Positions 29,941 to 54,670 of a DNA stretch of 64,000 nucleotides are shown one piece after another. Below the pieces are notes generated by a model. That model was not told the origin of the DNA, made no database searches, and saw only the letters and a list, made by a program, of their open reading frames with translations. The position numbers were made by a program, and so were the translations under genes. The DNA comes from Bacteroidia bacterium (GTDB lineage Bacteria > Bacteroidota > Bacteroidia > J057). Location of the stretch: contig JAUIGE010000002.1 in the NCBI GenBank assembly GCA_030430205.1, positions 310,001-374,000 of the forward strand, in the 5' to 3' direction. The number at the start of each line of letters is the position of its first letter. Position 1 is the stretch's first letter.

Positions 29941-29991
29941 TGATGTAGTAATGATGTGTTAAGGATCGGAAAGTGCTGTATTTTTGATGTA
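29941..29991 (+). promoter_or_regulatory. TGATGTA operator array upstream of the starch-binding-fold protein
   Basis: TGATGTA (29941), TGATGTG (29952) and TGATGTA (29985) lie on the plus strand with spacings of 11 and 33 bases. The same spacing, read on the minus strand, occurs at 37635-37585, and a variant of 11 and 21 occurs at 41964-42003. The array is 86 bases upstream of the ATG at 30077. I infer a shared activator or repressor site. Confidence 0.7.
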
Positions 29992-30076
29992 GGTATATAT
30001 GTTAATAGATTTCCAGATGATGTTGATATTGTGCTTTCGTTTTCAATTTTAACTACTTAATCAATTTACTAACATC

Positions 30077-31420
30077 ATGAAAAGAATTTTATTCACGATT
30101 TTTCTGGTAATGGGAATTGGAGCACTGACAGCTCAGGACTCCGTTAACATTACTTTTCACGTAAACATGAAGCAGCATACTGTTGCTGCTACTGGTGTTT
30201 ATCTTGCAGGAGGGGGTACCTTTGGTAATCCAGGTGACAACGAGATGACAGACCCTAACGCTGATGGCGTTTACTCTATCACCGTTAGACTCCCCAAAAA
30301 TATTACCACTGACTATACCTTCACAAACGGTGCATGTGGTGATTGGTCATGTAAGGAAAATATTACCGGACAGTCTTGTGCTGTTGCTCCCTTCAGTGAT
30401 CGTAGAATTTCAAATGTATCTGCTGATACAACTATTCTTACTTGTTTCCAGGAGTGTACCACGGATACTATTTGTAGCACTCCTCCCTCTGCTGTAAATG
30501 TGACCTTCCGTGTTGACATGACAGGCCAGACTTTTGACAGTGTGTATGTTACAGGTGGCTTTAGTGGTTGGGGTGGTTTTGCCCACAAAATGTCTGACAG
30601 TGACAATGACAACATCTGGGAAGCAACTGCCGCTATTGATCCAGGCAATATCGAGTACAAATTTGTAATCAACGGTACGCAGTACGAAGAGTGGGATAGC
30701 GTTGGAACGATGGGTGCTTGTATCAAGGATTTTGGCGGTTTTATTAACCGTTATGCTTCTATCAGTGGTAATGGCGATACAACTTTCTGTGTTGCTTCAT
30801 GGATGGGCTGCTGTGCTGCTGCTGCTCTTTATAGCGTAGAGTTCTCTGTAGATGTAAATACCCTTTCTCCAGCTCCAATGGCAGTGAATATAGGTGCTAA
30901 CTGGGACGGATGGTCTGGTGCAATCGCTATGGACGATTCTGATATGGACGGTGTTTGGAAGGCTACAGTTATGTTGCCTGCAGGTCCAATAGAGTACAAA
31001 TTCATACCAGACGGTAACTGGGAGGTTCTTGACAGCATCAATGGTCAGCCTTGTGTGCATGACTTCGGCGGCTTTGTTAACCGTGTCGATACCATTAGCG
31101 GGAATGTTGCACTATGTACCCCTATCATCGGACAGTGCTGTGCTGCTGCAGGCATCAACGACATTCTGGTAGACAACAACCTCTTTGTACTTCGTCCTAC
31201 CCAGACCAGCGACTTCGCTTATGTTGATTTCCCAACATTGAATGGTGAAGTAGCACAGCTTCAGATCATCAACATGGTCGGTCAGCGTGTATACCGCGAA
31301 GAGATGAAGACTTCAACAGAAACACATCGTATCGATGTGCGCAGCCTTACAAGCGGCTTGTACTTCGTACAGGTCAAAGTAGGTAACCGCATCGGAACGC
31401 AGAAAATGATAGTTGATTAG
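30077..31420 (+). CDS. Secreted protein with three starch-binding-fold (CBM20/48-like) repeats and T9SS domain
   Basis: The 447-residue protein has a signal peptide (MKRILFTIFLVMGIGALTAQ). Three repeats at about 22-125, 140-250 and 258-355 each contain VTFRVDMTGQ or similar, a DSDNDNIWEAT-type acidic turn and an EYKFVING-type strand, the look of CBM20/CBM48-like beta sandwiches. Each repeat also has a cysteine-rich ending such as GCCAAA. The C terminus (FVLRPTQTSDFAYVDFPT to TQKMIVD) is a T9SS type A domain. The gene uses more A/T at third positions than its neighbours, as often seen for highly expressed genes. It precedes the beta-glucan locus and is driven from a TGATGTA array. I infer a surface glycan-binding protein of that locus. 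Confidence 0.8.
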   Translation: MKRILFTIFLVMGIGALTAQDSVNITFHVNMKQHTVAATGVYLAGGGTFGNPGDNEMTDPNADGVYSITVRLPKNITTDYTFTNGACGDWSCKENITGQSCAVAPFSDRRISNVSADTTILTCFQECTTDTICSTPPSAVNVTFRVDMTGQTFDSVYVTGGFSGWGGFAHKMSDSDNDNIWEATAAIDPGNIEYKFVINGTQYEEWDSVGTMGACIKDFGGFINRYASISGNGDTTFCVASWMGCCAAAALYSVEFSVDVNTLSPAPMAVNIGANWDGWSGAIAMDDSDMDGVWKATVMLPAGPIEYKFIPDGNWEVLDSINGQPCVHDFGGFVNRVDTISGNVALCTPIIGQCCAAAGINDILVDNNLFVLRPTQTSDFAYVDFPTLNGEVAQLQIINMVGQRVYREEMKTSTETHRIDVRSLTSGLYFVQVKVGNRIGTQKMIVD

Positions 31421-31444
31421 GTTGGTTAGATAATTTTAACCAAA

Positions 31445-31477
31445 AAGGGTCGAGCTTTGCTCGACCCTTATTTTTTT
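31445..31477 (+). terminator. Strong intrinsic terminator
   Basis: AAGGGTCGAGC and GCTCGACCCTT form a perfect 11-bp stem with a TTT loop, followed by A and then T7. It ends the T9SS protein gene; the A-run before the stem makes it usable from the other side, for the convergent lipoprotein gene. Confidence 0.9.
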
Positions 31478-31510
31478 GCCTGAAAAGTAGGTGGGAGAGG
31501 GGACAAAAGA

Positions 31511-32722
31511 CTATTTCTCTACCAGACGAACATTATCCAGATAAAAATGCCCTTTTCCTGACAGATTGAAGCGGAGATTCTTGATGCTTTTCAGATCAGC
31601 CTTGCCTTTCAACTTTGAGAAAGGAATGCGTACCTCCTGCCACTCGCCCGTAAAACGGTCGCCTTGTATCCACTCTGTACTCAAAACGGCCTTTAGCCCG
31701 CCTCTGCCATCATAAGCCTCCAGCTCTACTTCCACCGGAAGGCTTTTATCAGCAGTAGCCTGAGCCACTTTTACATAAAAAGAAATCACCGCCTTGTCCA
31801 TGATCGGACGCACATCTACCAGCTCCCAATGCGCCCAGGAGACGCCCAGAGCACGGATGTCACAAGGGCTATTGTCCTCATAATTCCATTTCACGGAGAT
31901 CGCCTTGCTGCCGCTTTGCGGCGCTTCTTTGACGTATTCGATTTGCTGGCAGGCATTGCTATAGATGCCCCAACCATGGTTATGGATGAAAGCATCATCA
32001 TATAAAAGCTGTGGCAGCGCACAGGGATCGGGATAAACAGGCTCTTCCGTCCAGATCTCCTCAGGAGGAGCCACATAATCCACCACTGAGATTTCATCCA
32101 GATAAATATGGCCACTGCCCTGAAACTCCAGCATCACCTGCTTGATGTTGGTAGGATCTATGCCATCTTTTTCGAAGTCGAAAGCGCTCAAGGGAACTGT
32201 GATCGACTGCCAGTTTTCATCTATTACCGCCCGCTCAAAGTACTTATTGGCGGCATAGGCATAGGACTGCACACTTGAATAATCTTCCAGCGTCAGAACC
32301 ATGGGCAGGCCAAACATTTTGCCTTTGTAGCTGCGCACATGCATCTTAAAAGCAGCTACCTGCTGTATCTCTGACAGGTCCTTGCCTGCCCAGCCGTCCC
32401 ATCCCATGCCTATACCGGTCCAGATACAACCGCTGCGGTTCCACTCCAGCTCCAGGGCCGCACTGCCCTGGTAGGTGACATCATGCACAAGCCTGACATC
32501 CTTGCAACTGTCCTTTTCAATCCCCCAGACACTGAAGGTGTCATCCTTGAAGACGATGGGCTCGACTGCCAGCGACACCTTCGCCGGAGGCACGATCACT
32601 TCTGCAGCCATAGGCTGGTCATACAAGCCTATTTTTTTGAATTCTATGCAGCTTTCCAGCACCATCATAAGCAGGATAAACAGAAAGCCCGACAGACCTA
32701 TTTTTGCGAATTTCTTCATCAT
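31511..32722 (-). CDS. Lipoprotein with two galactose-binding-like (CBM11-like) domains
   Basis: The 403-residue protein has a signal peptide with a lipobox-like LESC near residue 25, so it is probably a lipoprotein. Two similar domains follow: about 45-220, ending FQGSGHIYLDEISVVD, and about 240-403, ending NLSGKGHFYLDNVRLVE. The repeat ending (GHxYLDxxxxV) and the KMHVRSY/ISFYVKV strand partners indicate CBM11/CIA30-type beta-sandwich modules, which bind glucans in other proteins. It is last in a four-gene minus-strand operon with another lipoprotein and two outer-membrane barrels, inside a glucan locus. I infer a surface glycan-binding protein. Confidence 0.75.
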   Translation of the reverse strand: MMKKFAKIGLSGFLFILLMMVLESCIEFKKIGLYDQPMAAEVIVPPAKVSLAVEPIVFKDDTFSVWGIEKDSCKDVRLVHDVTYQGSAALELEWNRSGCIWTGIGMGWDGWAGKDLSEIQQVAAFKMHVRSYKGKMFGLPMVLTLEDYSSVQSYAYAANKYFERAVIDENWQSITVPLSAFDFEKDGIDPTNIKQVMLEFQGSGHIYLDEISVVDYVAPPEEIWTEEPVYPDPCALPQLLYDDAFIHNHGWGIYSNACQQIEYVKEAPQSGSKAISVKWNYEDNSPCDIRALGVSWAHWELVDVRPIMDKAVISFYVKVAQATADKSLPVEVELEAYDGRGGLKAVLSTEWIQGDRFTGEWQEVRIPFSKLKGKADLKSIKNLRFNLSGKGHFYLDNVRLVEK

Positions 32723-32737
32723 AAATCGTAATTGAGG

Positions 32738-33742
32738 TTAAAGTTCAAGGGCTTTTCCTGAGGTAAAGGTCAGAAAGTCAATCCCGAATCGCACGGGCAG
32801 CGGCGGATTGGGTTGGGTATTTTTATTGGAAATAAGCAAAACCTGGATGGTGACGATCTTGGCCATCTCTGCCGCGGTCAGACCGATTTCCTCCATGCTG
32901 TTCGAGACCATTTTCCAGCCTTCATGATCCAGGGGATAATCCCCTGCCAGTTGCCTGGATTGATCCACGCCATCTGTAAATTTCCCGTCATTGTTGGTAT
33001 CAATGAAAAACTGCACCACCGCGATGGTGTGAGGCGTCTTGTCGTGCCAAAGGAAAGTGTTGAAATACACATCCGCAGGATCGGGGCTGGGCGTGGGGAA
33101 ATAGGTATTTCCGTCAAATTGAGCGTCAATCCGAATCAGCCCACAGAAGAAGTTGGAGACGACACCATCGGTGCCTTCAAACAGGAAGAATTTTTCTCCC
33201 TGCCCGGCAGCCAGATCAGCCCGGACACCGGTCTCTCCCGACAATTCAAATTCGAAATTTCCGAGAAACAGGCTGCTGCCGAGATCTTTCTCAAAATCAA
33301 CGAGCGTGATGGCGTCGTAGACTTTGCCCGAAAGGGCTTCCACTTCTGCTGTCATCAGCATGGAATCTGCCGTAGGCAGGAGCAGGGTCACATCGCACAT
33401 CTCGGCGCGAAAAAGCGGCGGCTGAGATGCGCCTCCATCCCAGAGGGCATTTTCTAAATTGAGTTCCTCAGAAAGGCCTTCTATGAACTTGACAGCACCG
33501 CTGCTGCGGCCCGTGATCGTCAGCTCCCAGTGGACCGATTTGTTGAATTTTGCGGTGAAAAAGACGTCTTCACCATTGGTGAAATCTGCCTGTGGCTGGC
33601 TGGCCGCCAGGCTTTCAACGAGCCTGAATTCTCCGAACTGATCCACCAGAGAAGGCCCATCAAATATGTCTGTCTCATGCTGACAAGCTGTGACAGCCAG
33701 CGTGAGCAGGAGAATGCTGAGGTATTTTGCTATATTTTTCAT
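32738..33742 (-). CDS. Lipoprotein of unknown family in the glucan locus
   Basis: The 334-residue protein has a lipoprotein signal (YLSILLLTLAVTACQHE). The mature part appears beta-rich, with FFTAKFNKSVHWELTI, an acidic loop FIDTNNDGKFTDGVD that looks like a calcium-binding loop, and a closing strand RFGIDFLTFTSG. It has no SusD or SusE signature. It lies 15 bases before the two-CBM lipoprotein gene and 35 bases after the barrel gene, so it belongs to the operon. The role is unknown; position and the Ca-like loop suggest glycan capture at the surface. Confidence 0.75.
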   Translation of the reverse strand: MKNIAKYLSILLLTLAVTACQHETDIFDGPSLVDQFGEFRLVESLAASQPQADFTNGEDVFFTAKFNKSVHWELTITGRSSGAVKFIEGLSEELNLENALWDGGASQPPLFRAEMCDVTLLLPTADSMLMTAEVEALSGKVYDAITLVDFEKDLGSSLFLGNFEFELSGETGVRADLAAGQGEKFFLFEGTDGVVSNFFCGLIRIDAQFDGNTYFPTPSPDPADVYFNTFLWHDKTPHTIAVVQFFIDTNNDGKFTDGVDQSRQLAGDYPLDHEGWKMVSNSMEEIGLTAAEMAKIVTIQVLLISNKNTQPNPPLPVRFGIDFLTFTSGKALEL

Positions 33743-33777
33743 GTTAAAATTGTTCTTGAGAGTGAATAGGCTTTTTG

Positions 33778-35517
33778 CTAAAATTCCATCACATAGAGGA
33801 TAAATCCGTGATTGAACCGGAAGGCATTCGTAGGATCATCTGCATTTTCGAAAGAAAAGCGCTGGAGCTGAGCCGTCAGGTAAATGCCTTCTTTGAAGGT
33901 ATAGCGAAAGCCTGCGCCGAGCAGTTGCTCGCTGTCATTGGCAGAAAACTGTGGAAAGTCTTCCACGGTATTGAATCTATTGATGACAGGCAGGTATTCA
34001 TTTCCGACTGCGGAAAGCGTTTTGAGGCCCAGGAGCAATTCAAAGTTGTTGAACAACTCAGCCTCTATGCCCACATCCAATAAATGGGAGCTGAGGTCTA
34101 TCTGCTCAACGGCGACACCGCCGCGCTCTGTCTTTTCCATCTGGTAGCCCAGGCTGACATCCAGCTCTTTCTGCCAATCCAACCACTTGGCAAGATGTGC
34201 ATCCGCCGAGAGGCGGGCGAGGCTAAAGCTTTTCAGTTCAAAGGTGCCCTGGCCACGTATTTCCCCCATCAATCCCACATCCAGCCCTACTTCGAGGCCT
34301 TCATTGGGCGTTTCATATTGGGCGTTGAGCCATAAGCCCCGGCGGTTGGGCGTTGCCTGCCCGTAGGGCTGGGTATTGCTGAGGCGAGGGTCGTAGGCCA
34401 TGAGGTAATCGTTCAGTTGGTAGGTGTATAGGCCGCGGTCACGGCCCAGGTCATACAAGGTCGTGGGGCGCAGCTGGCGGTCGTTGCCGATGCGGTTGTA
34501 GTACACTTTGGATCGGTCAAAGTCCACCCGCTTGCTCTGGGCTGTGGTGCTGAAAAAATCAGGACCAACATCTCTGAAGCTGGCGGTAAGGCTAAGTCCT
34601 TGCTCAGGCAATTCGATATGGAGGCCCGCTTCCAGAAAGCCATCGCTTTTGTCAAAGGTGAGCACGGAGTCCGTTTCGAGAAAACTCAGGCTGGAGCGAC
34701 CGGCTTCTCCGACAAGTTTTACTTTCAGTTTGTCTTTATTGAGCAAGTTGAGCGCTGCCTCCAGCGAGTAAACCGTATTTCTCATGCCTGAATTGGCATT
34801 TCCCGAATTCAAATCATCAAAGGTATGAACGAGGTTTCCCGTAAGGGTTCCCACCGTTTCATTCATCAGATTCAGCCTGCCTCCTCCTACAAATCGTGAA
34901 GGAACAGTGAAAAAGTCCGTGCCTCGGGTACGTGTGATGAATGCCTGCACGCGGGCTTCTTCTATGACTTGTCCCAGGGCCAGGGCAAAATCTATTTTAG
35001 CCCCCTGATAGCGGCGCATATTGTCCTGGTAGAAATTTTCGTAGTACAAAACCTCTTTCTGTGCTTCGAAAATGCTGGGATTGTTGACGCTGCCTTCTTC
35101 TTCAAAATTATACAGGGTATAAGGGGAAAGGGCCAGGTCCATATCGCCCACATGGTAGCGAAGGACTTCGGCGATCACGCCTTTGGCAAATAATTCCCGC
35201 ACCTCCACGCTGATCCCGCCGCCAAAGAAGCCGCCAAACTCATTGCGCAAACGCAGCGTACTTTGCACCTCTGTGCTTTTGTTGGGGGTAAAATTGAGCT
35301 GGAAATCCAGGAGGGTCTCTCCATCGGTGAGTCGGCTGGCAGAGGTGCTGTCGGTGACAGCTCCTTCAAGTTGAATGTTTTGCAACAATGCCCGGCCATA
35401 GCCATTGAAATTCAGTTTTTGTGTCTCTTCTTCCTGGGCGAAGATCAGGCCCGGCACTAGCAGGCAAGCCAGGCAGCTCAGGTAGAATTTGAGGGAAAAT
35501 GATGTATACTTTTTCAT
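33778..35517 (-). CDS. Outer-membrane beta-barrel protein
   Basis: The 579-residue protein has a signal peptide (ending LLVPGLIFAQ) and then alternating amphipathic strands through to a final phenylalanine (FNHGFILYVMEF), the normal C-terminal sorting signature of outer-membrane barrels. Repeated patterns of the type LDVGIEAELFNNFELLLGLK fit long barrel strands. It has no TonB box or plug domain and is not SusC. Together with the next barrel it probably forms the outer-membrane entry or surface part of the glucan locus. Substrate cannot be read from the sequence. Confidence 0.75.
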   Translation of the reverse strand: MKKYTSFSLKFYLSCLACLLVPGLIFAQEEETQKLNFNGYGRALLQNIQLEGAVTDSTSASRLTDGETLLDFQLNFTPNKSTEVQSTLRLRNEFGGFFGGGISVEVRELFAKGVIAEVLRYHVGDMDLALSPYTLYNFEEEGSVNNPSIFEAQKEVLYYENFYQDNMRRYQGAKIDFALALGQVIEEARVQAFITRTRGTDFFTVPSRFVGGGRLNLMNETVGTLTGNLVHTFDDLNSGNANSGMRNTVYSLEAALNLLNKDKLKVKLVGEAGRSSLSFLETDSVLTFDKSDGFLEAGLHIELPEQGLSLTASFRDVGPDFFSTTAQSKRVDFDRSKVYYNRIGNDRQLRPTTLYDLGRDRGLYTYQLNDYLMAYDPRLSNTQPYGQATPNRRGLWLNAQYETPNEGLEVGLDVGLMGEIRGQGTFELKSFSLARLSADAHLAKWLDWQKELDVSLGYQMEKTERGGVAVEQIDLSSHLLDVGIEAELFNNFELLLGLKTLSAVGNEYLPVINRFNTVEDFPQFSANDSEQLLGAGFRYTFKEGIYLTAQLQRFSFENADDPTNAFRFNHGFILYVMEF

Positions 35518-35529
35518 GATGATGTCTTA

Positions 35530-37521
35530 TCAAAAGAATATTTTTAGTTCAAAAGTGGTCTCATGGCCTTGATACTGATCAAGGCTGAAGTTGCGGTCGG
35601 CATAGCGCATGCGCCTGTGGCGCAGGTAGATCCCAGCGCCCTGGGCGATGGTCCAGTCGAAGCCTATGCCGTAGGCTTCTCCGAGTTGGTCACGTGGCAG
35701 GGCTGTTTCGACATCCCATTCGGTATCAGCTCCCCCCTGTATCCACTCGCGGCCGAGGTAGCCCGCGAGGATAAATTTGGGGAAGAGTTCATAGTACACA
35801 TCCAGCTCATGGTACTGGCTGAAGATATAGGTGTTTTCATCCATATAGGCGGTCAGGGAGAATTCGCTTTTCGCAGATTGCCATGAGCCCAGGTAGAAGG
35901 CATAGAAAGAATTGCCGGCAATTTTGCCTTTGTATTTCCCGATGATCTCTGCGGAGAGAAAATACTTTTTGTTCAGGGGGGCAGCCGTTCCCGGGTCAAT
36001 ATCTGTTGTCTGCACCCGCTCATAGGTTCCGCGGAAGTAGGTCACCTTCCGGCTATATGGACCTGCGATGGTAGGGCCTGTGGCATTGGCGGGAAAGGGA
36101 TTGTAGATACGTGATATCGCCAGACCATTGATCCGATGATCATAGGAAAGGGTGCTGGTAAGCGCCTCCAATTCCTGCGACATGCCATAGTTGGCTGCCA
36201 GGTTGAAAGAGCCCAGCTTTTTCGTTATGTAGATATTGGCTCCTCGGCGGTTGTGCGCCAATTGCCCCGTGATGGGCATGCCATTGCCGCCTGTCGGTTG
36301 CCCCGACTGGTTGGTTCCAAAAGAGCTGGAAGTAAATTTGGGGTTGGAAAAGGTCTGGATTTCGCTGTTGTTGTTGAAAAAATTCTTTCCGATCTGATAG
36401 AGCTGTACTTCCAGTGGCAGGAAGGTGTATTCTTTGGGAAAGGTGGCGCGCAGCATCAGGGCTTCGCCCCATTTGGAGGTCTCTGTCGGATTGAAATAGC
36501 GCCCTACGCCCATCTCTCCGGTGAATCGTACCTTCGCCAGGCTATAGTCAAAACTCATGGTATTGACCTGAAAACCATTCCGGATGTCCTGGACCGTATC
36601 CAGGAAGGTTCTGCTGTAGAGGGTGTTATAGGCGACATAGTTTGCGCCGAAACTCTTCTTGAGCTGCCCGCCCGTAGCGATACTCGCTACAAAACGGCTG
36701 TCCCCGGCCAGGGGATAGTAGTTGGGCACATTGCCATTGATGCCAGGATTGACGATCACGGGAAGCGTCGCCGCCGGGCTTGTCTGAAAGCCTCCCTGCC
36801 CATTGGAGTTCAGGTTAAATAAACCGCCATTGGGCTGGGTTTTTCCATAAATGGCCTTGAAAGACAAGTTCCCCGGCAGATCACTGCCTTCAAATACAAA
36901 GCCCTGAAAGGCGACATAGCCCCAGCGGGAGTCCCGGCTTACGCTGCCGGTTTCGTAATAGTTGTCATACTTATCGGTATGCGTCGCAGGCTCCCAGGGA
37001 GTCCGCTCAAAAATACTGTAGCGATCCAGGATCTGAAAGGTCCCCATGGTAAAAGGACTGATACTGTACCAGTTGATGCCTCCTGCACGGACGCCAAACT
37101 TTCCGATATCTGTCCGGAAATTGCCGTACATGCTCAGGCCCAGGTTGAGCGTAAGCACATTGTCCTTGTAGGTGCCTGCATAAGGCGAGAAAATAAAAAG
37201 CTCTGTTCCAAAGCTGGCGCGCCCATTGGGGCGGCCACTCACTGTGAGGGAGAGCATCGGCTCCCGATAGCCATCTCCGATTCCTCCGACTATCCTTTCA
37301 TAAGGACTCAGTCCGGGATAGGGAGTGGTCATGTTGCGGTTATACATGAATAGCCGATAATAGCCAAACATGCTCAGCCGATTGAGGGGCGGCTTTCGCC
37401 CTTTGCTGGAGTCTGCCACAGCCTGTGCAGGCTTGTCAGAAGGCGAAGCCATCGGCTGGCCTGCCAGGGGGAGCATGCTGCCTACCAGGAGAAGCAAACA
37501 TCCCAACATACGGTATATCAT
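35530..37521 (-). CDS. Outer-membrane beta-barrel protein, first gene of the operon
   Basis: The 663-residue protein has a signal peptide (MLGCLLLLVGSMLPLAGQ if read from the second ATG, which may be the true start at 37509). The mature part consists of amphipathic strands such as GYYRLFMYNRNM, SFGTELFIFSPY and IGKYKGKIAGNSFYAFYLGS and ends in a terminal phenylalanine (TTFELKIFF). There is no plug or TonB box. It is the promoter-proximal gene of the four-gene operon, with a TAGATTTG box and a TGATGTA array upstream. The pair of barrels replaces the SusC/SusD pair normally found in such loci. Confidence 0.75.
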   Translation of the reverse strand: MIYRMLGCLLLLVGSMLPLAGQPMASPSDKPAQAVADSSKGRKPPLNRLSMFGYYRLFMYNRNMTTPYPGLSPYERIVGGIGDGYREPMLSLTVSGRPNGRASFGTELFIFSPYAGTYKDNVLTLNLGLSMYGNFRTDIGKFGVRAGGINWYSISPFTMGTFQILDRYSIFERTPWEPATHTDKYDNYYETGSVSRDSRWGYVAFQGFVFEGSDLPGNLSFKAIYGKTQPNGGLFNLNSNGQGGFQTSPAATLPVIVNPGINGNVPNYYPLAGDSRFVASIATGGQLKKSFGANYVAYNTLYSRTFLDTVQDIRNGFQVNTMSFDYSLAKVRFTGEMGVGRYFNPTETSKWGEALMLRATFPKEYTFLPLEVQLYQIGKNFFNNNSEIQTFSNPKFTSSSFGTNQSGQPTGGNGMPITGQLAHNRRGANIYITKKLGSFNLAANYGMSQELEALTSTLSYDHRINGLAISRIYNPFPANATGPTIAGPYSRKVTYFRGTYERVQTTDIDPGTAAPLNKKYFLSAEIIGKYKGKIAGNSFYAFYLGSWQSAKSEFSLTAYMDENTYIFSQYHELDVYYELFPKFILAGYLGREWIQGGADTEWDVETALPRDQLGEAYGIGFDWTIAQGAGIYLRHRRMRYADRNFSLDQYQGHETTFELKIFF

Positions 37522-37544
37522 AAGCAGTAGATTTTAGGTTATTT

Positions 37545-37552
37545 CAAATCTA
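37545..37552 (-). promoter_or_regulatory. -7 promoter element of the barrel/lipoprotein operon
   Basis: The minus strand reads TAGATTTG, an exact TAnnTTTG match, 24 bases before the annotated ATG at 37521. It lies 83 bases downstream of the first TGATGTA heptamer of the array and has no good -33 element, as expected for an activator-dependent promoter. Confidence 0.5.
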
Positions 37553-37584
37553 CATCTAGCTATATAGATATTGAAATTTCTGCC

Positions 37585-37635
37585 TACATCAAGAACTCAT
37601 CCCTTTTGCCTGCCCGCTACATCACCAATACATCA
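37585..37635 (-). promoter_or_regulatory. TGATGTA operator array of the barrel operon
   Basis: On the plus strand TACATCA occurs at 37585, 37618 and 37629. Read on the minus strand, toward the barrel operon, this is TGATGTA at 37635, then 11 bases on, then 33 bases on. This is identical in spacing and order to the array before the 30077 gene. The divergent glycosidase gene at 37716 might share it. Confidence 0.75.
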
Positions 37636-37648
37636 TGCCTTCAAATGC

Positions 37649-37679
37649 TTGCATGCGATGATTTCAAGCACTATTTTTT
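37649..37679 (+). promoter_or_regulatory. Possible promoter of the glycosidase gene
   Basis: TTG at 37649 and TATTTTTT at 37672 are separated by 20 bases, close to the Bacteroidota TTG-N19-TAnnTTTG layout, with the last G of the -7 box missing. It lies 37 bases upstream of the start codon. Confidence 0.35.
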
Positions 37680-37715
37680 CTTATCCTTTTATTTTCAAGA
37701 CAATATGTATCCATC

Positions 37716-39029
37716 ATGATGAACCGTCAATTATTCCGTATTCTCACGATTAGCTGTTTTTTCTGTCTGGCATTTTTGCCGCTGATCCAGGCCCAGGAGG
37801 GGCCGATAAAAGTGGAGGTCAGAGAAGAAAATGGCAATTTTCAGTTATACCGGGGCGGGCAGCCCTATTATATCAATGGCATAGGCGGGCAGATCTATAT
37901 GGACCGAGGAAAAGCCTATGGCGCCAATTCGGTGCGTACCTGGGGGGCAGATGATGCCATCAAGATACTGGATGAAGCCCATTCAAAGGGGCTCACAGTC
38001 TTGTTTGGCCTGTGGGTAGGGCAGGAGCGGCAGGGCTTTGATTATGATGATGCGAAGGCTGTGAAATCTCAGCTGGCCTATTTTGCCGAAGTGGTAAAAA
38101 GCTATAAGGACCACCCTGCAATTTTGATGTGGGGGATCGGCAATGAAAATGACCTGATGTATGAAAACCGCAAGGTCTGGACGGCGATCAATGACATCGC
38201 GAAGATGATCCACGAAGTGGATCCCAATCACCCCACCATGACCGTCACGGCCGGTCTGGATGTAGCTGAAGTTCAGCTGATCCAGGAGCGGGCCCCCCAT
38301 ATAGATGTATATGGGATCAACACCTATGGCGGCCTGATCGGTATCGATCAGCAGATCCGCAGCTATGGCTGGGAAGGCCCCTATATCATCGCCGAGTGGG
38401 GCCCCAATGGACATTGGGAGGTGCCTAAAACCAAATGGGGAGCCCCCATAGAGCAGACAAGCGCCGTAAAAGCCGCGAAATACCGCGAGCGCTATGAGCA
38501 GGGCATCGCCCGCGATAAGGAGCGCTGCCTGGGATCTTATGTTTTCCTTTGGGGAAATAAGCAGGAAACGACCCCCACCTGGTATGGCCTTTTCCTGGAA
38601 AATGGAGAAGAAACCGAAGTCATGGACGAGCTCGAGTATTGCTGGTCAGGCAAATGGCCCGAGAATCGGGCGCCTCATATTGCCTCTTTTACCCTCGACG
38701 GCAAAGAACCTACGGCCAGTGTCTACCTCAAGCCCGGCAGAAAATATACAGCAGAAACGACCATTACAGATCCCAATGGGGACAAGCTCAGCTATGAGTG
38801 GATCATCCTGGAGTCTGAGATAGGCCTCACGGGCTCAGGAGGAGATGCGGAGGTGAAGCCGGATCAGGTGAAAATAAAAGTCCAGGAAGAAGGGGAGGGA
38901 AAACTCACCTTCAAGGCCCCCAATCAGGAAGGAGGCTATCGCCTCTTTATCTATGCCCGCGATGGCAAAGGCAAGGTGGCTACCGCCAATTTCCCTTTTT
39001 ATGTGCGCATCCATTCGGATTCGAAGTAG
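37716..39029 (+). CDS. Secreted TIM-barrel glycoside hydrolase (beta-glucanase-like)
   Basis: The 437-residue protein has a signal peptide (FFCLAFLPLIQAQ). The first 310 residues form a clan-A-like TIM barrel: NSVRTWGADDAIKILDEAH, LMWGIGNENDLM with the acid/base glutamate, and YIIAEWGPNGHWE with the nucleophile glutamate. Residues 315-437 form a beta-sandwich with a PKD-like look (TITDPNGDKLSYEWI). It resembles enzymes annotated as GH2-type TIM barrels, including endo-beta-1,3-glucanases of GH158; the exact family cannot be settled by eye. It sits divergent from the barrel operon and before the sensor gene, fitting extracellular or periplasmic glucan cutting. Confidence 0.85.
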   Translation: MMNRQLFRILTISCFFCLAFLPLIQAQEGPIKVEVREENGNFQLYRGGQPYYINGIGGQIYMDRGKAYGANSVRTWGADDAIKILDEAHSKGLTVLFGLWVGQERQGFDYDDAKAVKSQLAYFAEVVKSYKDHPAILMWGIGNENDLMYENRKVWTAINDIAKMIHEVDPNHPTMTVTAGLDVAEVQLIQERAPHIDVYGINTYGGLIGIDQQIRSYGWEGPYIIAEWGPNGHWEVPKTKWGAPIEQTSAVKAAKYRERYEQGIARDKERCLGSYVFLWGNKQETTPTWYGLFLENGEETEVMDELEYCWSGKWPENRAPHIASFTLDGKEPTASVYLKPGRKYTAETTITDPNGDKLSYEWIILESEIGLTGSGGDAEVKPDQVKIKVQEEGEGKLTFKAPNQEGGYRLFIYARDGKGKVATANFPFYVRIHSDSK

Positions 39030-39032
39030 GCA

Positions 39033-41957
39033 TCAAAAATTCATCATATACTCAACCAGGTTGGTATCGCGATCAAGCTCCATCTTTTTGCGCAGCCGGT
39101 ACCGACTGATCTCAACCCCCCTGACGGAGATATTCAGCAGGGGGGCTACCTCCTTGGTCACCAGATTCATGCGCAGATATGCCGCGAGTTTCAGGTCTTT
39201 GGGGGTGAGTTGCGGATACGTTTCCCGCAGTCTTTTGATAAAGTCCTCATGCACCCGGTCAAAGTGATGCTCAAAACTGTTCCAGTTTTCGTCCAGTTTG
39301 ACATCCTGCTCGATGGCCTTGATGATTTGTTTCACTTCCTTTCGCTGGTTTTCAGGCACCTGCTTGCTCAGGCGGGTCAGTTCATTTTTGAGTTTAAAAA
39401 GGATTTCGCTCTTCTGGAGCAGGTGCATGGTTGTAGAAGCGAGTTCCTGCTTTTTGAACTCAATCTCATTGCGGAGCTTGTCATTGCGTAGCTGGAGGAT
39501 CTCGGCTTCGTTTTCTTCCAGCGTTTGTTGAAAAGCGGCTTCTTTCCTCTCCAACTCAGCTTTGCTGGCCTGTACCAAAGCATCTGCTTTCCTGCTCATG
39601 CGCCTTCTGTTGAGGAGAAAAACGCATGCCAATCCCATCAAAAACAGCATTACCCAAAATATCCTTGCAGCGGGTTTGAGATACCAGGGGCTTTCTATTT
39701 CGAAGAAAAAGCTGCTTACCGTACTTGCCGCTCCCAGGTCATTTCTTGCCTGTACCTGAAACTCGTACCTGCCAGAAGCCAGATTGCTGTATTCTTTTTC
39801 CGTTTTTTCATCCCAGGCGGACCAACTTTCATTCAGGCCTTTCAATTGAAAGCGATACTGGGTATGGGCCTTTTCGCTGAACTGAGTGGCTGCAAAGCTG
39901 AAGCGTAACGAATGGATATGGCTCGACAGCAGACATACAGAATCCAAAGCTGATCCAAAGCTCTGGGCACCCCCATATATCAGGCTATCGGCCTGCTGGT
40001 CGAGTACGGTTCTGATATGTATTTTTTGCGGATGGACCACTCCGGAGTTGAAGGAGGGATTATAATGGACAAAACCTCCTTCTGTGGCGATAAAAACATT
40101 GTTTTCGTCCAGGGGAAATACCTGCTCAAAGCCCTCTACCAGGGCAGGTTGTAGCCGGTTAAGTCTCACTTTTTTCAGGGAGTATTCCAATCCTTTGTTT
40201 TCTATTTGTAAAAAACCAAACTCCAGTCCGGCAGAAAACCAGACATTTCCATCAGGTGCTTCCCAGAGCCACCGGGGCGGGGTTTGGGCAAATACACTGT
40301 CAAAAACAGGATGAGGGATAAAGCGATCTTCTGCCGGCAGGTATTTAAACACCCCTTTGAGGGTAGTGAAGATCAACTCATTATAGATGCGGCAGACATT
40401 GACGGAAAAGGAGGAGGGGAGGCCGCTGCTGCTATCGTAGCTGGTGACAGTTTCCAATTGTGTCAGGTCATCAGAAAGTGTCAATTTAAATACCCCCCGG
40501 TAAAAATGGGTGACCCATAAATCGCCGGAGTCTCCTTCCTCCATCACGCGGCTTGACTCACTAAAGCCAGGAATCCGGCTTTCAGCGATCCAGTGCCCTC
40601 CCTGCCTGCGGTAGCGCACCAGGCCGTCATAGGTGCCTCCTACGGCATAGCCGGGATGATGACGCAAAGGCAGAAACTTCCAGGCTCCCGCCACCTGTGA
40701 TAGCTGCTGGTTTTGATTTTTATAGGAAAAAAATGCGCCTTCATGGCGTCCTACCCACAGGCTGTCGCCCCACTCAGACAATGCCCATACCTGCCCTGAG
40801 AAGCCAGGGATAAGCTGAAATGACAAAGCCTGATGCGCAGGCCAGCTATGGGCGTAGACCCCCTGGTTGGTTCCCAGGTACATTTTGCCGTCATGAAATG
40901 CGGAAGTATAGCCTGTCCCTTCTATGCCTTCGGTAGGCCCCAGTATGCTGAAAGGGGAGTTTATTTCCACATAATTCAGGCCGTTGTCCAGCCCCAGCCA
41001 GAGATGCCCCTGCCTGTCCTGGAGCATGCTGAGCACGGTATTGTTGGTGAGGCCCTGCTCTTTGTTGATGTGCCAGATGACATCGCCCTGTGGGTTGCTG
41101 AGCAAAAGGCCATTTTGCGGACTGCCAAAGGCAAAGTTGCCGTCCTGAAGGCGGATACCGCAGTAGGCCTGGTATTTTTTCAAAAAATCATGTGCCTGGC
41201 CCGAACTTTCCACAAAATGCTTTCCATCATAATAAAAGATACCTTTTTGCGCCGTTATGACCCGGATTTTGTCGCCTTCCATGGGGAGGATGCTGGCTAA
41301 AGTGATTTGCTTCAGCCTCTCCCCATCCGGAACGGGTTGAAGCAGAAAGGATTCGTTCAGTTCCATCAGGCCTTTTTGCCAATCATGTACATATAGCTTT
41401 TTCCCCAGCTGATAAGCATTGTCAAATCGGCTGTCCTCTTCAGCTTTCAATAAGCTGATCTGCTTCCCATCCCATCGCATGATCATATTTTGGGCTACGC
41501 CTATGATGCCCCCCTCTGTCACAAAAGTCTTCCAGACATCATCGAAGCTGCGTTGTTCTTTTGGAAAAAAAGGCAGCAGGGAATGGAAAACATTTTCCCC
41601 TTTTTCATTTGCCCTGAAGTAGCCCCATTCTCCCTGCCCTCCGACAAATAATCGCCCCTCGCCATCCAACGCCAGAGAGCGGGCGATGGTGTGATTCGGA
41701 AGTGCATACCTCCGCCAATTCACACCATCAAACTCCAGCAATCCATGGTTGTTGCCAATATAGATCAGGTCCCTTTCATCCTGGACGAAAGCCCAGTTTT
41801 GGGTGCCTGCCTGGTATGTGGATTTGGAATAATGGGTGATAAAAGGGCTACCCGGGCGATAGCCCTGAGCCTGGATGAGCCCCAGGCCCTGCACGCCCAA
41901 AATGATCCACCAGACGGCTTTGTAAATCCCCTGAACCGCTACCTTTTTCATAATCAT
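39033..41957 (-). CDS. One-component sensor: propeller, Y_Y_Y domain, TM, coiled coil and LuxR-type HTH
   Basis: The 974-residue protein has an N-terminal signal/anchor, a series of propeller blades (for example DRQGHLWLGLDNGLNYVEI, the typical two-component-regulator propeller motif), a Y_Y_Y domain (YRFQLKGLNESWSAWDEK to YEFQVQARNDLG), one membrane segment (IFWVMLFLMGLACVFLLNRR), a coiled coil at about 790-880, and a C-terminal HTH (LTPKDLKLAAYLRMNLVTKE, then ISVRGVEISRYRLRKKMEL) of LuxR/GerE type. It lacks a histidine kinase domain and so acts directly on DNA. Such sensors regulate glycan loci after binding oligosaccharides in the periplasm. It is divergent from the MFS transporter gene, and the TGATGTA arrays are the best candidate targets. 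Confidence 0.9.
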   Translation of the reverse strand: MIMKKVAVQGIYKAVWWIILGVQGLGLIQAQGYRPGSPFITHYSKSTYQAGTQNWAFVQDERDLIYIGNNHGLLEFDGVNWRRYALPNHTIARSLALDGEGRLFVGGQGEWGYFRANEKGENVFHSLLPFFPKEQRSFDDVWKTFVTEGGIIGVAQNMIMRWDGKQISLLKAEEDSRFDNAYQLGKKLYVHDWQKGLMELNESFLLQPVPDGERLKQITLASILPMEGDKIRVITAQKGIFYYDGKHFVESSGQAHDFLKKYQAYCGIRLQDGNFAFGSPQNGLLLSNPQGDVIWHINKEQGLTNNTVLSMLQDRQGHLWLGLDNGLNYVEINSPFSILGPTEGIEGTGYTSAFHDGKMYLGTNQGVYAHSWPAHQALSFQLIPGFSGQVWALSEWGDSLWVGRHEGAFFSYKNQNQQLSQVAGAWKFLPLRHHPGYAVGGTYDGLVRYRRQGGHWIAESRIPGFSESSRVMEEGDSGDLWVTHFYRGVFKLTLSDDLTQLETVTSYDSSSGLPSSFSVNVCRIYNELIFTTLKGVFKYLPAEDRFIPHPVFDSVFAQTPPRWLWEAPDGNVWFSAGLEFGFLQIENKGLEYSLKKVRLNRLQPALVEGFEQVFPLDENNVFIATEGGFVHYNPSFNSGVVHPQKIHIRTVLDQQADSLIYGGAQSFGSALDSVCLLSSHIHSLRFSFAATQFSEKAHTQYRFQLKGLNESWSAWDEKTEKEYSNLASGRYEFQVQARNDLGAASTVSSFFFEIESPWYLKPAARIFWVMLFLMGLACVFLLNRRRMSRKADALVQASKAELERKEAAFQQTLEENEAEILQLRNDKLRNEIEFKKQELASTTMHLLQKSEILFKLKNELTRLSKQVPENQRKEVKQIIKAIEQDVKLDENWNSFEHHFDRVHEDFIKRLRETYPQLTPKDLKLAAYLRMNLVTKEVAPLLNISVRGVEISRYRLRKKMELDRDTNLVEYMMNF

Positions 41958-41963
41958 ATCACA

Positions 41964-42003
41964 TGATGTAATGGTGATGTAATATAACGCTTTAATGATG
42001 TAT
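41964..42003 (+). promoter_or_regulatory. TGATGTA operator array between sensor and MFS genes
   Basis: TGATGTAA at 41964, TGATGTAA at 41975 and TGATGTAT at 41996 give spacings of 11 and 21 bases, about one and two helical turns, so all three lie on one face of the DNA. The array begins 7 bases from the sensor start codon, so it could also repress or autoregulate that gene. A weak TAACTTAT lies 83 bases downstream of the first unit. Confidence 0.75.
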
Positions 42004-42126
42004 GCAAAGTGAGCCAGCTTGTATGGCCCTTTTCAGAATCAGCTTCTAACTTATGGAAATCTTTAAATAGCTAAATAGTTTACTTATGCAGCGAATAATC
42101 ACCCCCTTATCTAACCCGCTTGTCTC

Positions 42127-43731
42127 ATGAAGAATAAAAATACCACACTCGTTTTGATCTCCCTGATAGTCGCTTTGGGCGGCTTTTTGATGGGATTTGA
42201 TGCATCGGTGATCTCCGGTGTCAATAAGTTTATCACCATTGAGTTCGAACTCAGTGATATAGAATTGGGCTGGGCTGTGGCCTCGCTCACGCTCAGCTCT
42301 ACCCTGGCCATGTTTGTGGCCGGACCTCTCAGCGACCGCTACGGCCGAAAGCGCATGCTGACCCTTGCAGCCATCCTCTATGCCGTTTCTGCCATAGGCT
42401 CTGCCCTGGCACCTTCATTTATCATTTTGGTTATCGCCAGGATGATAGGCGGCATCGGCGTAGGCTTTTCTTTGATTTTGGCACCTATGTATATCGCCGA
42501 GCTTGCGCCAGCCAGGATGCGGGGGCGGCTGGTTTCCTTCAACCAGCTCAACATTGTCATCGGTATCTCTGTTGCTTTTTTTACCAACTACCTGATCCTC
42601 CAACTGGGGAAATCGGATGCCGCCTGGGCGCAGAACCTGAAACTGGATGACTACAACTGGCGTTGGATGCTGGGGCTGGAGGCCCTGCCTGCCATACTGT
42701 ATTTCCTGGGCCTGAGCTTTGTGCCACAGAGTCCGCGCTGGCTGATGATGAAGGGCAAATTTGACCAGGCCATGGCCATCATGAGGCGGGCAGGAGGCAA
42801 GGATGATGAAATCCAAAAACAAATGGCTGATGTGAAAAACAGCCTTCAATCCAGCGGAGGCGAAGCCTCGCGCAATTACCTCGACCTTTTGAAACCTGCC
42901 CTAAAACTTGTGCTTGTCATCGGAATTGTGATCGGGGCTTTGCAGCAGCTTACAGGCATCAACTCTGTATTTTTCTATGCACCCATGATTTTTGAGCAAT
43001 CCGGAGCAGGAGAGGATGCCTCTTTCACACAAGCGATCCTCGTAGGTCTGATCAACCTGGTTTTTACGGTCGTGGCCATCCTGTTTATTGACAGATTGGG
43101 CCGCAAGCCTCTGCTGGTGACAGGCGTAGCAGGAATTGTCTTGTGCATGGGATTATTGTCTTACCAATTTGGCCAGGCTACTTATAGCCTGACAGACAGC
43201 AGCTTTGAGGCCTTTGCAGAGGTTCCAGAAGGGGAAAAAGAGCCCAAAATCAAGGCGGAATATACAGCAGCCATGCTGGAGTTTAAGGATCAAACTTTTG
43301 ACAACGATGTAGATTTCAAAAATGCCCTCAAGGCAAAAATAGGCAAAGAAGAATTCAAGAAAATTGAATCCATTGTGATCACACAAGCCATCAAAAACCT
43401 GGATGCCAACCTCGTTTTGCTTGCTGTTTTGGGCTTTGTGGCCTTCTTTGCTGTGTCCATAGGGCCTGTCATGTGGGTGCTATTCTCAGAACTTTTCCCC
43501 AACTATATCCGGGGAATTGCCATCTCCTTTGTGGGCTTTATCAACTCGGGCGTGAGTTTTTCCGTGCAACTTGTCTTTCCCTGGGAACTCAATACACTCG
43601 GAAATGCAATGACATTTCTGATCTACGGCGCCATTTGCGCAGTAGGGCTTATCTTCATTGTCCTTGTCGTTCCGGAGACCAAAGGAAAATCCCTGGAAGA
43701 ACTGGAGGCTATGTTGGTAAAAAAGGATTAA
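42127..43731 (+). CDS. Sugar porter family MFS transporter
   Basis: The 534-residue protein has 12 membrane segments and the sugar-porter signatures DRYGRKRML after segment 2, PQSPRWLMMKGKFDQA after segment 6, QQLTGIN in segment 7 and VPETKGKSLEELEAM at the end. A hydrophilic insertion of about 75 residues (from about SLTDSSFEAFAEVPEGEKEP to KKIESIVITQAI) lies between segments 9 and 10, on the periplasmic side. These carriers usually import a sugar with protons. It heads a co-directional run with GH16 and a phosphorylase, so I infer import of glucan-derived oligo- or disaccharide. Confidence 0.93.
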   Translation: MKNKNTTLVLISLIVALGGFLMGFDASVISGVNKFITIEFELSDIELGWAVASLTLSSTLAMFVAGPLSDRYGRKRMLTLAAILYAVSAIGSALAPSFIILVIARMIGGIGVGFSLILAPMYIAELAPARMRGRLVSFNQLNIVIGISVAFFTNYLILQLGKSDAAWAQNLKLDDYNWRWMLGLEALPAILYFLGLSFVPQSPRWLMMKGKFDQAMAIMRRAGGKDDEIQKQMADVKNSLQSSGGEASRNYLDLLKPALKLVLVIGIVIGALQQLTGINSVFFYAPMIFEQSGAGEDASFTQAILVGLINLVFTVVAILFIDRLGRKPLLVTGVAGIVLCMGLLSYQFGQATYSLTDSSFEAFAEVPEGEKEPKIKAEYTAAMLEFKDQTFDNDVDFKNALKAKIGKEEFKKIESIVITQAIKNLDANLVLLAVLGFVAFFAVSIGPVMWVLFSELFPNYIRGIAISFVGFINSGVSFSVQLVFPWELNTLGNAMTFLIYGAICAVGLIFIVLVVPETKGKSLEELEAMLVKKD

Positions 43732-43772
43732 TATTCGAACTCAATTATATTCTCATCATTCAATCTCATCAA

Positions 43773-44996
43773 ATGAAACCACTCATTCATATTTGGGCTG
43801 CATGCCTGGGGCTTTTCCTTGTGTCATGCCAGCAAAATACGCCTGCTGAAAAAGAAGCAACAACAGATAGCTCTACCCCTCCGGTGGAAACGGTCATGTA
43901 TTCCCCTGACAGTCCTTTTTTGTTGCATACAGATACCACGCTTGATTTTTCGGTAGAAGTAAAAACCGTAGGGCGTTATCGGAGCAAAGTGATCCTGAAA
44001 AATGAAGGCGACGGCCCCGCCTCTATCTGGATAGAGGACTATATCGGCAATCCCGATGGCCGTACCTACAACATCACCGCAGGCATGGAAGTGCCTGTCG
44101 GCGCAACCGAAGTATTCAAAGAGGGAAGTCCTCTGAAGATAGGCACCCACAAGATGCGCCTGCACGCATCCAAAGGCGCTGTCAGCGTCTCTTCCATCGC
44201 TTTTGAATGGATGATCAATCATCAGGAGACACCCGATACCCTGGTGCAAAGCACCGATGGGGACGAGTGGGAACTCGTCTGGTCAGACGAATTTAACGGC
44301 ACAGGCCTCGTAGACGACAGCAAATGGACCTACGATGTAGGCAACTGGGGCTGGGGCAACAATGAGCCTCAATACTATACGGTAGCCCGTACAGAGAATG
44401 CCCGGCAGGAAAACGGCAACCTCATCATCGAGGCGCGCAAAAACGATATGGGGCAGCCATGGACTTCGGCCCGCCTGACGACCCGCGGCAAAGTCAGCTT
44501 CCTCTACGGCAAGCTCGAATTTCGCGCCAAAGCGCCCGCAGGCGATGGCAGCTGGGCAGCCGGCTGGCTGCTGGGAGATAGCTATAGAGACGAGATATCA
44601 TGGCCTTATTGTGGAGAGGTAGATGTGCTGGAATGCATAGGCAAAGAAATCGACGACAATACCGGCGACGGCATCAATCACGGTTCCTGCCACACGCGCG
44701 GCTATTATTTCAAACAGGGAAACCACATCACCAATACTATCCCTGTCAAAGACATGGTCAATACTTTCCATACCTATACCGCCGAGTGGATGCCCACCGA
44801 GATGCGACTGTATGTGGATGGCGAGCTTTATTATACCTACGACAAGATAGCCGATGAGCTGGAATGGCCTTTTGGCAAAGGACAAAATATCATCATCAAC
44901 CTCGCCATGGGCGGGGGTATGGGTGGAGATATTGACCCTACGCTTGAGCGCGCTCAGTTTGTTTTGGATTATGTTCGTTGGTACGGAAAGAAATAA
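43773..44996 (+). CDS. GH16 beta-glucanase (laminarinase-like) lipoprotein
   Basis: The start is set at MKPLIHIWAACLGLFLVSCQ; the 100 residues before it in the track overlap the MFS gene in another frame. The 407-residue protein has a lipobox (LVSC), an N-terminal beta-sandwich at about 40-165, possibly carbohydrate-binding, and a GH16 domain from WELVWSDEFNG to VRWYGKK. The catalytic signature is EVDVLECIG (E-x-D-x-x-E), and the NNEPQYYT motif is typical of beta-1,3-glucanases and lichenases. It is presumably surface- or periplasm-exposed on a lipid anchor. It lies 41 bases after the MFS stop and 5 bases before the phosphorylase start. Confidence 0.93.
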   Translation: MKPLIHIWAACLGLFLVSCQQNTPAEKEATTDSSTPPVETVMYSPDSPFLLHTDTTLDFSVEVKTVGRYRSKVILKNEGDGPASIWIEDYIGNPDGRTYNITAGMEVPVGATEVFKEGSPLKIGTHKMRLHASKGAVSVSSIAFEWMINHQETPDTLVQSTDGDEWELVWSDEFNGTGLVDDSKWTYDVGNWGWGNNEPQYYTVARTENARQENGNLIIEARKNDMGQPWTSARLTTRGKVSFLYGKLEFRAKAPAGDGSWAAGWLLGDSYRDEISWPYCGEVDVLECIGKEIDDNTGDGINHGSCHTRGYYFKQGNHITNTIPVKDMVNTFHTYTAEWMPTEMRLYVDGELYYTYDKIADELEWPFGKGQNIIINLAMGGGMGGDIDPTLERAQFVLDYVRWYGKK

Positions 44997-45001
44997 ATAA
45001 C

Positions 45002-53545: not shown

Positions 53546-54670
53546 ATGACCCTCCTGACTTTTATCCTGTTGGGATGCATTCCCGTGGTGGCGGCCTCCT
53601 GGATTTTGCCCTCTCGCTGGCAACTCTGGCCCATGCCGATCGCTACGGCGGTTTTTCTGGCGTATTTTGCGCCGGTTTCTTTGGCGATACTCACGGCTAC
53701 GACGATCACTTCTTATTTTATCCTTCAGTATAAAAAGAAACTCACCGCAGCCACACTTGTGGTCGTGGCTCAGTCCGCCGCCATTTTCCTCTTTTTCAAA
53801 CTCGGCGCAAATCACCAGATGGGCATGGTGCTGGAGCGCATCATTCCGCTGGGTTTGTCCTATTATTCCTTTCGCCAAATCCACTATGCGGTAGAAGCTT
53901 ATAAGCAAAAACTGCCGCAGCATCACCTGGGAGATTACGTGAAATATTTATTTTTTCTGCCGACGATCTTGGTCGGTCCGATCCATCTTTTTCAGGATTT
54001 TCAGCGGGACAGCCGCAGGCGGCGGTGGGATGCGGGCATGTTTTCGCAGGGCCTGGAGCGCATCCTCTATGGTTTTGTCAAAATCACGGTTTTGGGCAAT
54101 TATCTCGTCTCCTATCACCTTCAAAATTACATTTTGAGCCTGGAGCCAGATTCCTGGCTGGCGACCTATCTGGATGCCTTTCGCTTCACGGCGAATGCCT
54201 ATTTTCAGTTCGCGGGCTTCTCAGAGATAGCCGTCGGTCTCTCCGCCCTGATGGGCTTTCGGATCATCGAAAACTTTCGTTTTCCTTTCCTGGCGCTCAA
54301 TATGACCGATTTTTGGAATCGCTGGCACATCTCGCTTTCGCATTGGTGCCGCGAGTATGTCTACTTTCCGATCTTGGGCTACAGCCGCAAGGGAAATATA
54401 GCCATCGTAGCGTCCATGCTGGTGCTGGGACTTTGGCATGAGATATCGAGCTATTTTATGGTTTGGGCGATTTCACATGCCGTTGCGATCAATATCTGGC
54501 ATGCGTATAAAAATTCCGCTTTTCAAAAAAAGCTTCATGCGGCCCTTCCTTTTCACCAGGCACTGGGCTGGCTGTTGACGATGCACTTTGTGATGTTTAG
54601 CTTTATTCTTTTGAAAGAGGAAAACTGGGCGGATATTATTCGGGCGTTCCAAAATCTTTTATTTCTGTAG
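53546..54670 (+). CDS. MBOAT-family membrane O-acyltransferase (DltB-like)
   Basis: The 374-residue multi-pass protein carries the MBOAT signatures PLGLSYYSFRQIHYAVEAYK, FLPTILVGPIHLFQDF, DFWNRWHISLSHWCREYVYF at about 254-273, and the catalytic histidine in LGLWHE at about 296. In DltB, AlgI and PatA these proteins move an acyl group from a cytoplasmic carrier to an extracytoplasmic acceptor. The length is nearer DltB (about 400) than AlgI (about 470 or more). It starts 2 bases after the pseudogene stop and ends 2 bases before the SGNH gene. With the adenylation-carrier enzyme it makes the expected transfer pair. Confidence 0.92.
   Translation: MTLLTFILLGCIPVVAASWILPSRWQLWPMPIATAVFLAYFAPVSLAILTATTITSYFILQYKKKLTAATLVVVAQSAAIFLFFKLGANHQMGMVLERIIPLGLSYYSFRQIHYAVEAYKQKLPQHHLGDYVKYLFFLPTILVGPIHLFQDFQRDSRRRRWDAGMFSQGLERILYGFVKITVLGNYLVSYHLQNYILSLEPDSWLATYLDAFRFTANAYFQFAGFSEIAVGLSALMGFRIIENFRFPFLALNMTDFWNRWHISLSHWCREYVYFPILGYSRKGNIAIVASMLVLGLWHEISSYFMVWAISHAVAINIWHAYKNSAFQKKLHAALPFHQALGWLLTMHFVMFSFILLKEENWADIIRAFQNLLFL

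Follow-up and report, generated by a model that had tools for sequence, protein, structure and literature searches.

Three promoters of this glucan locus are preceded by phased copies of the heptamer TGATGTA, which raises the question of what these arrays do and which protein reads them. A preliminary description of the window, by which we mean the whole 64,000-nucleotide stretch of DNA analysed here, had taken them to join a T9SS protein, an operon of barrels and a transporter into one regulon, with the sensor encoded at 39033 (REG from here on) as the obvious candidate regulator. We find that the arrays are real, regulatory and well conserved; both the regulon and the regulator proposed earlier hold up, and the anatomy of the element itself can be drawn more sharply. 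The reading that we favour, at a probability of roughly 0.87, is that the arrays are the operators of a single beta-1,3-glucan (laminarin-type) regulon, read and activated by REG.

The arrays and their genes

The arrays in the window are composed as follows:

29941-29991, plus strand: array 1, upstream of the T9SS CBM gene at 30077; units TGATGTA (29941-29947), TGATGTG (29952-29958), TGCTGTA (29974-29980) and TGATGTA (29985-29991), phased 0/11/33/44
37585-37635, minus strand: array 2, at the promoter of the barrel operon; units at 37629-37635, 37618-37624, 37596-37602 (degenerate, GGATGAG) and 37585-37591
41964-42002, plus strand: array 3, between the regulator and the MFS-GH16-GH149 operon; units at 41964-41970, 41975-41981 and 41996-42002, phased 0/11/32 and equivalent to units 1, 2 and 3

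Every unit described earlier was recovered at its position (29941, 29952 and 29985 on the plus strand; 37635, 37624 and 37591 on the minus strand; 41964, 41975 and 41996 on the plus strand), as were the spacings of 11 and 33 in arrays 1 and 2, those of 11 and 21 in array 3, and the orientation of all three arrays toward the gene that they had been said to serve. The window contains 28 copies of TGATGTR; shuffled sequence gives 13.2 ± 3.9, and none of 100 shuffles reached 28. Once one mismatch is allowed, TGCTGTA at 29974 supplies array 1 with a fourth unit, giving a phasing of 0/11/33/44 in which all four units are present, two of them imperfect. Units 1, 2 and 4 survive in array 2, where unit 3 is degenerate, and units 1, 2 and 3 survive in array 3; the spacing of 33 in the one and of 21 in the other arises because different units of the tetrad have been kept. 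The window arrays are versions of the tetrad element seen in relatives, with decayed units. The units and spacings hold as first described, and the triple as the basic unit does not: that unit is a doublet or a tetrad.

The genes that these arrays would serve, and their neighbours, are:

30077-31420, plus strand: T9SS-secreted protein with AMPK1_CBM/CBM20/CBM48-like modules and a Por_Secre_tail, target of array 1
31511-32722, minus strand: CBM30 / surface glycan-binding-like protein (Pfam), last gene of the array-2 operon
32738-33742, minus strand: conserved lipoprotein-like protein, array-2 operon
33778-35517, minus strand: BAR2, second barrel, of no Pfam family, array-2 operon
35530-37521, minus strand: BAR1, outer-membrane beta-barrel of no Pfam family, first gene of the array-2 operon
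37716-39029, plus strand: GH2-TIM-barrel-like glycosidase (Pfam), divergent from BAR1
39033-41957, minus strand: REG, the presumed regulator, 974 aa (Pfam, AF2 model, PDB matches)
42127-43731, plus strand: MFS sugar transporter (Pfam), first gene after array 3
43770-44996, plus strand: GH16 beta-glucanase lipoprotein (start inferred)
44978-48460, plus strand: GH149 1,3-beta-D-glucan phosphorylase (NCBIfam equivalog GH149_beta_1_3; score 1641 bits, cut-off 1150)

Array 2 shares its intergenic region with the divergent GH2-TIM-like gene, and array 3 starts 7 bp upstream of the annotated start of the divergent regulator. The substrate is most likely a beta-1,3-glucan such as laminarin, since the locus encodes a GH149 phosphorylase, in line with the MFS sugar transporter and the GH16 enzyme; the modules of the array-1 target are of the starch/glycogen-binding type. 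Neither barrel of the array-2 operon carries SusC/SusD signatures, and the PDB comparison of BAR1 returned generic porin-like barrels only, with low TM-scores. Barrels of no Pfam family replace SusC/SusD in the two-barrel glycan locus (33778-37521 in the window; L062-L132 among relatives), which is widespread and kept from Saprospiraceae to Rhodothermia. Directly downstream of the GH149 gene lie two consecutive large AMP-binding (acyl-CoA synthetase-like) proteins (48527-53204), followed by an MBOAT acyltransferase at 53546, with no evident relation to the glucan regulon.

Specificity, conservation and promoter geometry

Two tests that could refute the earlier reading had been named beforehand, a genome scan and a comparison of related loci, and both came out in its favour. 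Their frequency in the genome proved not to be random: TGATGTR-N4-TGATGTR has exactly three matches in 7.24 Mb, which are the three window arrays, where about 0.2 would be expected by chance on our own base-rate estimate, and the reversed-pattern control gave no match in the same 7.24 Mb. The looser pattern TGATGTA-N12..38-TGATGTA was abandoned, as it returned up to nine mostly scattered matches per genome. Allowing one mismatch adds a single promoter:

G000 contig C40:55645-55674 (L060:7646-7675): fourth array, TGATGTA/AGATGTA/TGATGTA, phased 0/11/23, upstream of a gene for a T9SS protein with a CBM35-like domain

Furthermore, a profile built from 32 elements of relatives, with all window sequence left out, was run over 13 genomes of the family. 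Its top four sites in the genome of the window are array 2 (E=3.8e-7), array 3 (6e-4), array 1 (0.002) and the C40 site (0.009), followed by a fifth-ranked site at E=0.3. The earlier proposal of one regulon is borne out by this ranking, and the predicted regulon comprises the three window arrays and the C40 promoter. Elsewhere in the family, doublets precede genes for T9SS-tail or CBM35-like proteins in G006:C815 and G008:C317. The doublet in G011:C437 is oriented away from the nearby CBM35 gene, which counts against the reading, and a TGATGTG pair in G007:C71 lies inside an ORF and was treated as chance.

As for related loci, the same element recurs at orthologous positions in dozens of genomes. 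A scan with the barrel protein, taking one genome per species, yielded 71 loci, among which a clade about 50% identical to BAR1 comprises Saprospiraceae, Lewinella (the cultivable Lewinella cohaerens has the locus), Cryomorphaceae and other Flavobacteriales; the element also recurs at orthologous loci of other Bacteroidota. At the barrel promoter of this clade the tetrad reads TGATGTA-N4-TGATGTA-N13-WGATGTA-N4-TGATGTA, and about 27 relatives carry this 0/11/31/42 arrangement, or part of it, at the orthologous promoter. A second such tetrad precedes the GH16/MFS operon that diverges from the neighbouring regulator; elements of this kind were seen there in 14 loci. Overall, units fall at 0/11/31-33/42-44, that is, two head-to-tail doublets about three helical turns apart, each doublet consisting of a 7-bp site and a 4-bp spacer (11 bp). 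In the alignment of 32 elements, conservation is limited to the heptamers and the -7 box, and the spacers have diverged. In the distant, 35%-identical barrel clade, where the operon mostly occurs without REG, the one locus L098, which has REG, shows a near-doublet before its operon, and the other loci of that clade have none. The regulator and the GH2-like gene lie tail to tail in the window (37716-41957) and in most relatives (L065 and others), and run in the same direction in G006 and G007 (L062, L063); this difference implies that the regulator gene was inverted while the operator at the barrel promoter was kept.

The element also keeps its distance from the promoter, for which the following -7 boxes are relevant:

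37545-37552, minus strand: -7 box TAGATTTG (TAnnTTTG), at a distance of 83 bp from where array 2 begins (80-83 bp in relatives)
42047-42054, plus strand: TAACTTAT, a weak candidate for the -7 box (by eye, off consensus), at a distance of 83 bp from where array 3 begins
30024-30031, plus strand: TGATATTG, a weak candidate for the -7 box (by eye, off consensus), at a distance of 83 bp from where array 1 begins

The TAnnTTTG box of Bacteroidota sigma-A promoters is present at array 2 and in its relatives, and arrays 1 and 3 have no consensus match in the expected place. Of the 27 barrel promoters listed, 22 have the box 80-83 bp from the first unit; at the second promoter, on the GH16/MFS side, the distance is 82-84 bp. 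Where there is just one doublet, the box is found at 49-51 bp, which is the position of the tetrad's proximal doublet, and class-wide, eight of nine exact -7 boxes downstream of doublets lie at 50/51 or 82/83 bp. About 34 bp lie between the end of the proximal doublet and the first base of the box downstream of it. In Flavobacterium psychrophilum the TAnnTTTG box sits at -12 to -5 (PMC9723704). Given these fixed distances (80-83 bp, or 49-51 bp for a single doublet), the proximal doublet would cover roughly -63 to -46 from the start site, a typical position for an activator.

The candidate regulator and its relatives in Bacteroidia

REG is the only candidate regulator encoded in the locus. It has a signal or transmembrane segment (6-28), a double beta-propeller with Y_Y_Y, a second transmembrane segment (about 762-786), a coiled coil and a C-terminal HTH (about 916-970); Pfam reports Reg_prop, Y_Y_Y and GerE only. 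Its periplasmic part resembles the heparin sensor BT4663 (PDB 4a2l), with further PDB matches to 3v9f and 3ott. The GerE match to the HTH (E=4.5e-4, 20.2 bits) falls below the cut-off of 23.5 bits, a model of LuxR-type response regulators matches the C-terminus at E=1.7e-7, and the AF2 model has a pLDDT mostly below 60 in this part. We regard REG as a membrane one-component regulator with a LuxR/GerE-like HTH, the HTH assignment being a weak one. In orthologues that are about 40% identical overall, the HTH is near-invariant. At two loci (L072:3061-6119 and L207:8930-11870) REG is split into two overlapping ORFs, by a frameshift or an assembly error.

Array-positive loci of the 50% clade, in a tally that leaves out six of them on short contigs, have REG either adjoining or elsewhere in the genome (L064, L068, L071). 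The array-negative barrel loci of this clade, L073, L083, L086, L100 and L125, belong to genomes in which no REG-type protein was found genome-wide, L125 giving a sensor-like match only. We extended the comparison to 395 Bacteroidia genomes, 57 of them REG-positive and 338 REG-negative, and to the flanks of 30 REG homologues taken from that set. The exact TGATGTA doublet occurs in 18 of 57 REG-positive against 17 of 338 REG-negative genomes (Fisher p=4e-8, uncorrected for relatedness), and within the former, 13 of 26 exact doublets lie no more than 2 kb from REG, for an expectation of about 0.05 (likewise uncorrected). The near-REG doublets span eight family groups and lie 27-200 bp from a REG homologue; their neighbours encode SusC-like receptors, glycosidases (one of them a GH2-TIM), and PKD, CBM and CBM48 proteins. 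Such co-occurrence and adjacency argue for the sensor as regulator, as first suggested, with its binding to the arrays putative.

The generalised doublet [AT]G[AT][AT]GTA was found at a spacing of 11 in the flanks of 18 of the 30 homologues, and in none of the 30 at control spacings of 9, 10, 12 and 13; local shuffles gave a mean of 0.1 locus and at most 2. This half-site class was picked after some of the loci had been seen, which makes the spacing contrast the cleaner evidence. A sequence-blind count of exact heptamer repeats also peaks at 11, the next peaks being periods 7 and 14. In the class-wide count we disregarded repeats at spacings of 8 and 14, which arise where TGATGTAGTA overlaps itself. 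Among REG-positive genomes the reversed pattern is an imperfect control, as elements of the TGATGTAGTnnTGATGTAGT form contain it (seen in L212).

Next to sister REG homologues whose recognition helices are altered, the 11-bp period is kept in doublets built from related heptamers. Beside the genome's own REG paralogue on contig C12 stands TGTAGTA-CTAT-TGTAGTA (L205:1507-1524), beside another sister TGTAGTA-GTAA-TGTTGTA (L204:10663-10680), and AGTAG doublets accompany further sisters (L055:8505 and 11437, L057:1602). A related heptamer doublet also lies beside a sister regulator around position 10987 of L054. The association between recognition helix and site is 16/2 against 2/10 (p=1e-4) when uncorrected, and in tree-based independent pairs its direction is consistent and not significant, so that this covariation is a lead, not proof. 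On balance we lean towards an uncharacterised, Bacteroidia-wide family (double propeller, Y_Y_Y and LuxR-type HTH) that reads a common code. In it, NNNNGTA half-sites follow one another every 11 bp and make up doublets or tetrads, whose first base would lie about 50 or 82 bp before the -7 box, with a heptamer (TGATGTA, TGTAGTA, TGTTGTA, ATGAGTA) that drifts with the recognition helix and a head-to-tail assembly like that of PhoB on an unrelated fold. The element, its anatomy, its fixed distance to the -7 box, its conservation, its specificity within the genome, and its co-occurrence with and adjacency to REG are all direct observations.

Mode of action and comparison with known systems

How would REG use such an element? 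What we infer is that REG physically binds the arrays, how many subunits do so, that the outcome is activation and not repression, and what the ligand is. One HTH would occupy each half-site TGATGTA(G), and two subunits would bind head to tail on one doublet, in which the 7-bp site and 4-bp spacer make up one helical turn. With two doublets three turns apart, the tetrad would lie on one face of the helix. The periplasmic double propeller would sense a glucan oligosaccharide, upon which REG at the proximal doublet would contact RNA polymerase and activate the barrel operon, the MFS-GH16-GH149 operon, the T9SS CBM gene and the unlinked T9SS CBM35 gene. Activation is suggested by the position of the sites and by analogy with SusR (PMC3878776).

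REG could instead bind these sites chiefly to repress its targets, or, at array 3, to repress its own gene. The 7 bp between array 3 and the REG start codon would suit this, as would the doublets that often lie 50-150 bp from the regulator start throughout the class. However, at the barrel promoter and the GH16 promoter the sites stop about 34 bp short of the -7 box, on its upstream side and without overlap, their orientation and distance are fixed as for an activator, and the functional analogue SusR is an activator (PMC3878776); we therefore consider repression as the main role unlikely, and array 3 may add negative autoregulation to activation by REG. Even less probable is that another regulator of the cell, such as a response regulator of the OmpR/PhoB type, binds the arrays, with 39033 merely a neighbour. 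The geometry of the arrays matches PhoP/PhoB sites exactly (PMC4832192) and binding by REG is putative, yet the doublets keep to the vicinity of a 39033 homologue across eight family groups, loci without the regulator are also without the array, and no other regulator was seen to be conserved in these loci. That the arrays are chance clusters, or remnants of REP or CRISPR-like repeats with no regulatory role, is scarcely credible: arrays 1 and 3 are imperfect and have no clear -7 box, but conservation is confined to the heptamers and the -7 box, the spacers having diverged, the distances are constant across dozens of genomes, and exact sites number three in 7.2 Mb. The genome scan, the fixed distances in relatives, the held-out model and the class-wide spacing test together refute this last reading.

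How Bacteroidota control their use of glycans is of central importance for carbon cycling in the sea and in the gut, and site codes have so far been proposed mainly for SusR and the HTCS of Bacteroides. A search of the open-access literature returned nothing on a TGATGTA site code or on Reg_prop/Y_Y_Y/LuxR regulators; subscription papers and RegPrecise may hold some. The arrays belong with the direct-repeat operators of PUL regulators, and the 7+4 doublet code is new to the literature searched, where the widespread regulator family to which it is tied has no described sites. Simple, strongly conserved and at a fixed distance to the -7 box, this code allows one to predict from sequence the regulons of many uncharacterised genes, and hence their substrates; transport loci that lack SusC/SusD, such as the barrel locus, are among them.

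Like REG, the regulators of SusR-like regulons in Bacteroides are membrane one-component proteins, with direct-repeat sites predicted upstream of polysaccharide operons (PMC3878776). SusR motifs consist of two direct-repeat sites with 67 or 77 bp between their centres (Ravcheev et al. 2013, PMC3878776), a spacing that does not occur here, where spacings are 11 and 31-33. Moreover, REG has a GerE-like HTH and a double-propeller sensor, whereas the DNA-binding domain of SusR has been described as unlike those of other known factors (PMC3878776), the description on which this contrast between the two domains is based. The HTCS of Bacteroides (BT4663, BT4673, BT3049) have the periplasmic Reg_prop double propeller and Y_Y_Y in common with REG, and likewise combine direct-repeat sites with control of PULs. 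However, they unite kinase, receiver and AraC domains in one chain, none of which Pfam finds in REG, and have a distance of about 21 bp between their sites (PMC3878776). In geometry, the arrays match the tandem sites of the OmpR/PhoB type, which are 7-bp direct repeats with a strict 4-bp spacer. PhoP and PhoB bind such repeats as head-to-tail dimers, and longer arrays as cooperative tri- and tetramers (PMC4832192). Proteins of this type have a receiver and a winged helix, neither of which Pfam finds in 39033. Purely by analogy, REG would work like PhoP/PhoB on its repeats. The code raises a structural question, namely in what way an HTH of the LuxR type that is tethered to the membrane would recognise direct repeats in tandem.
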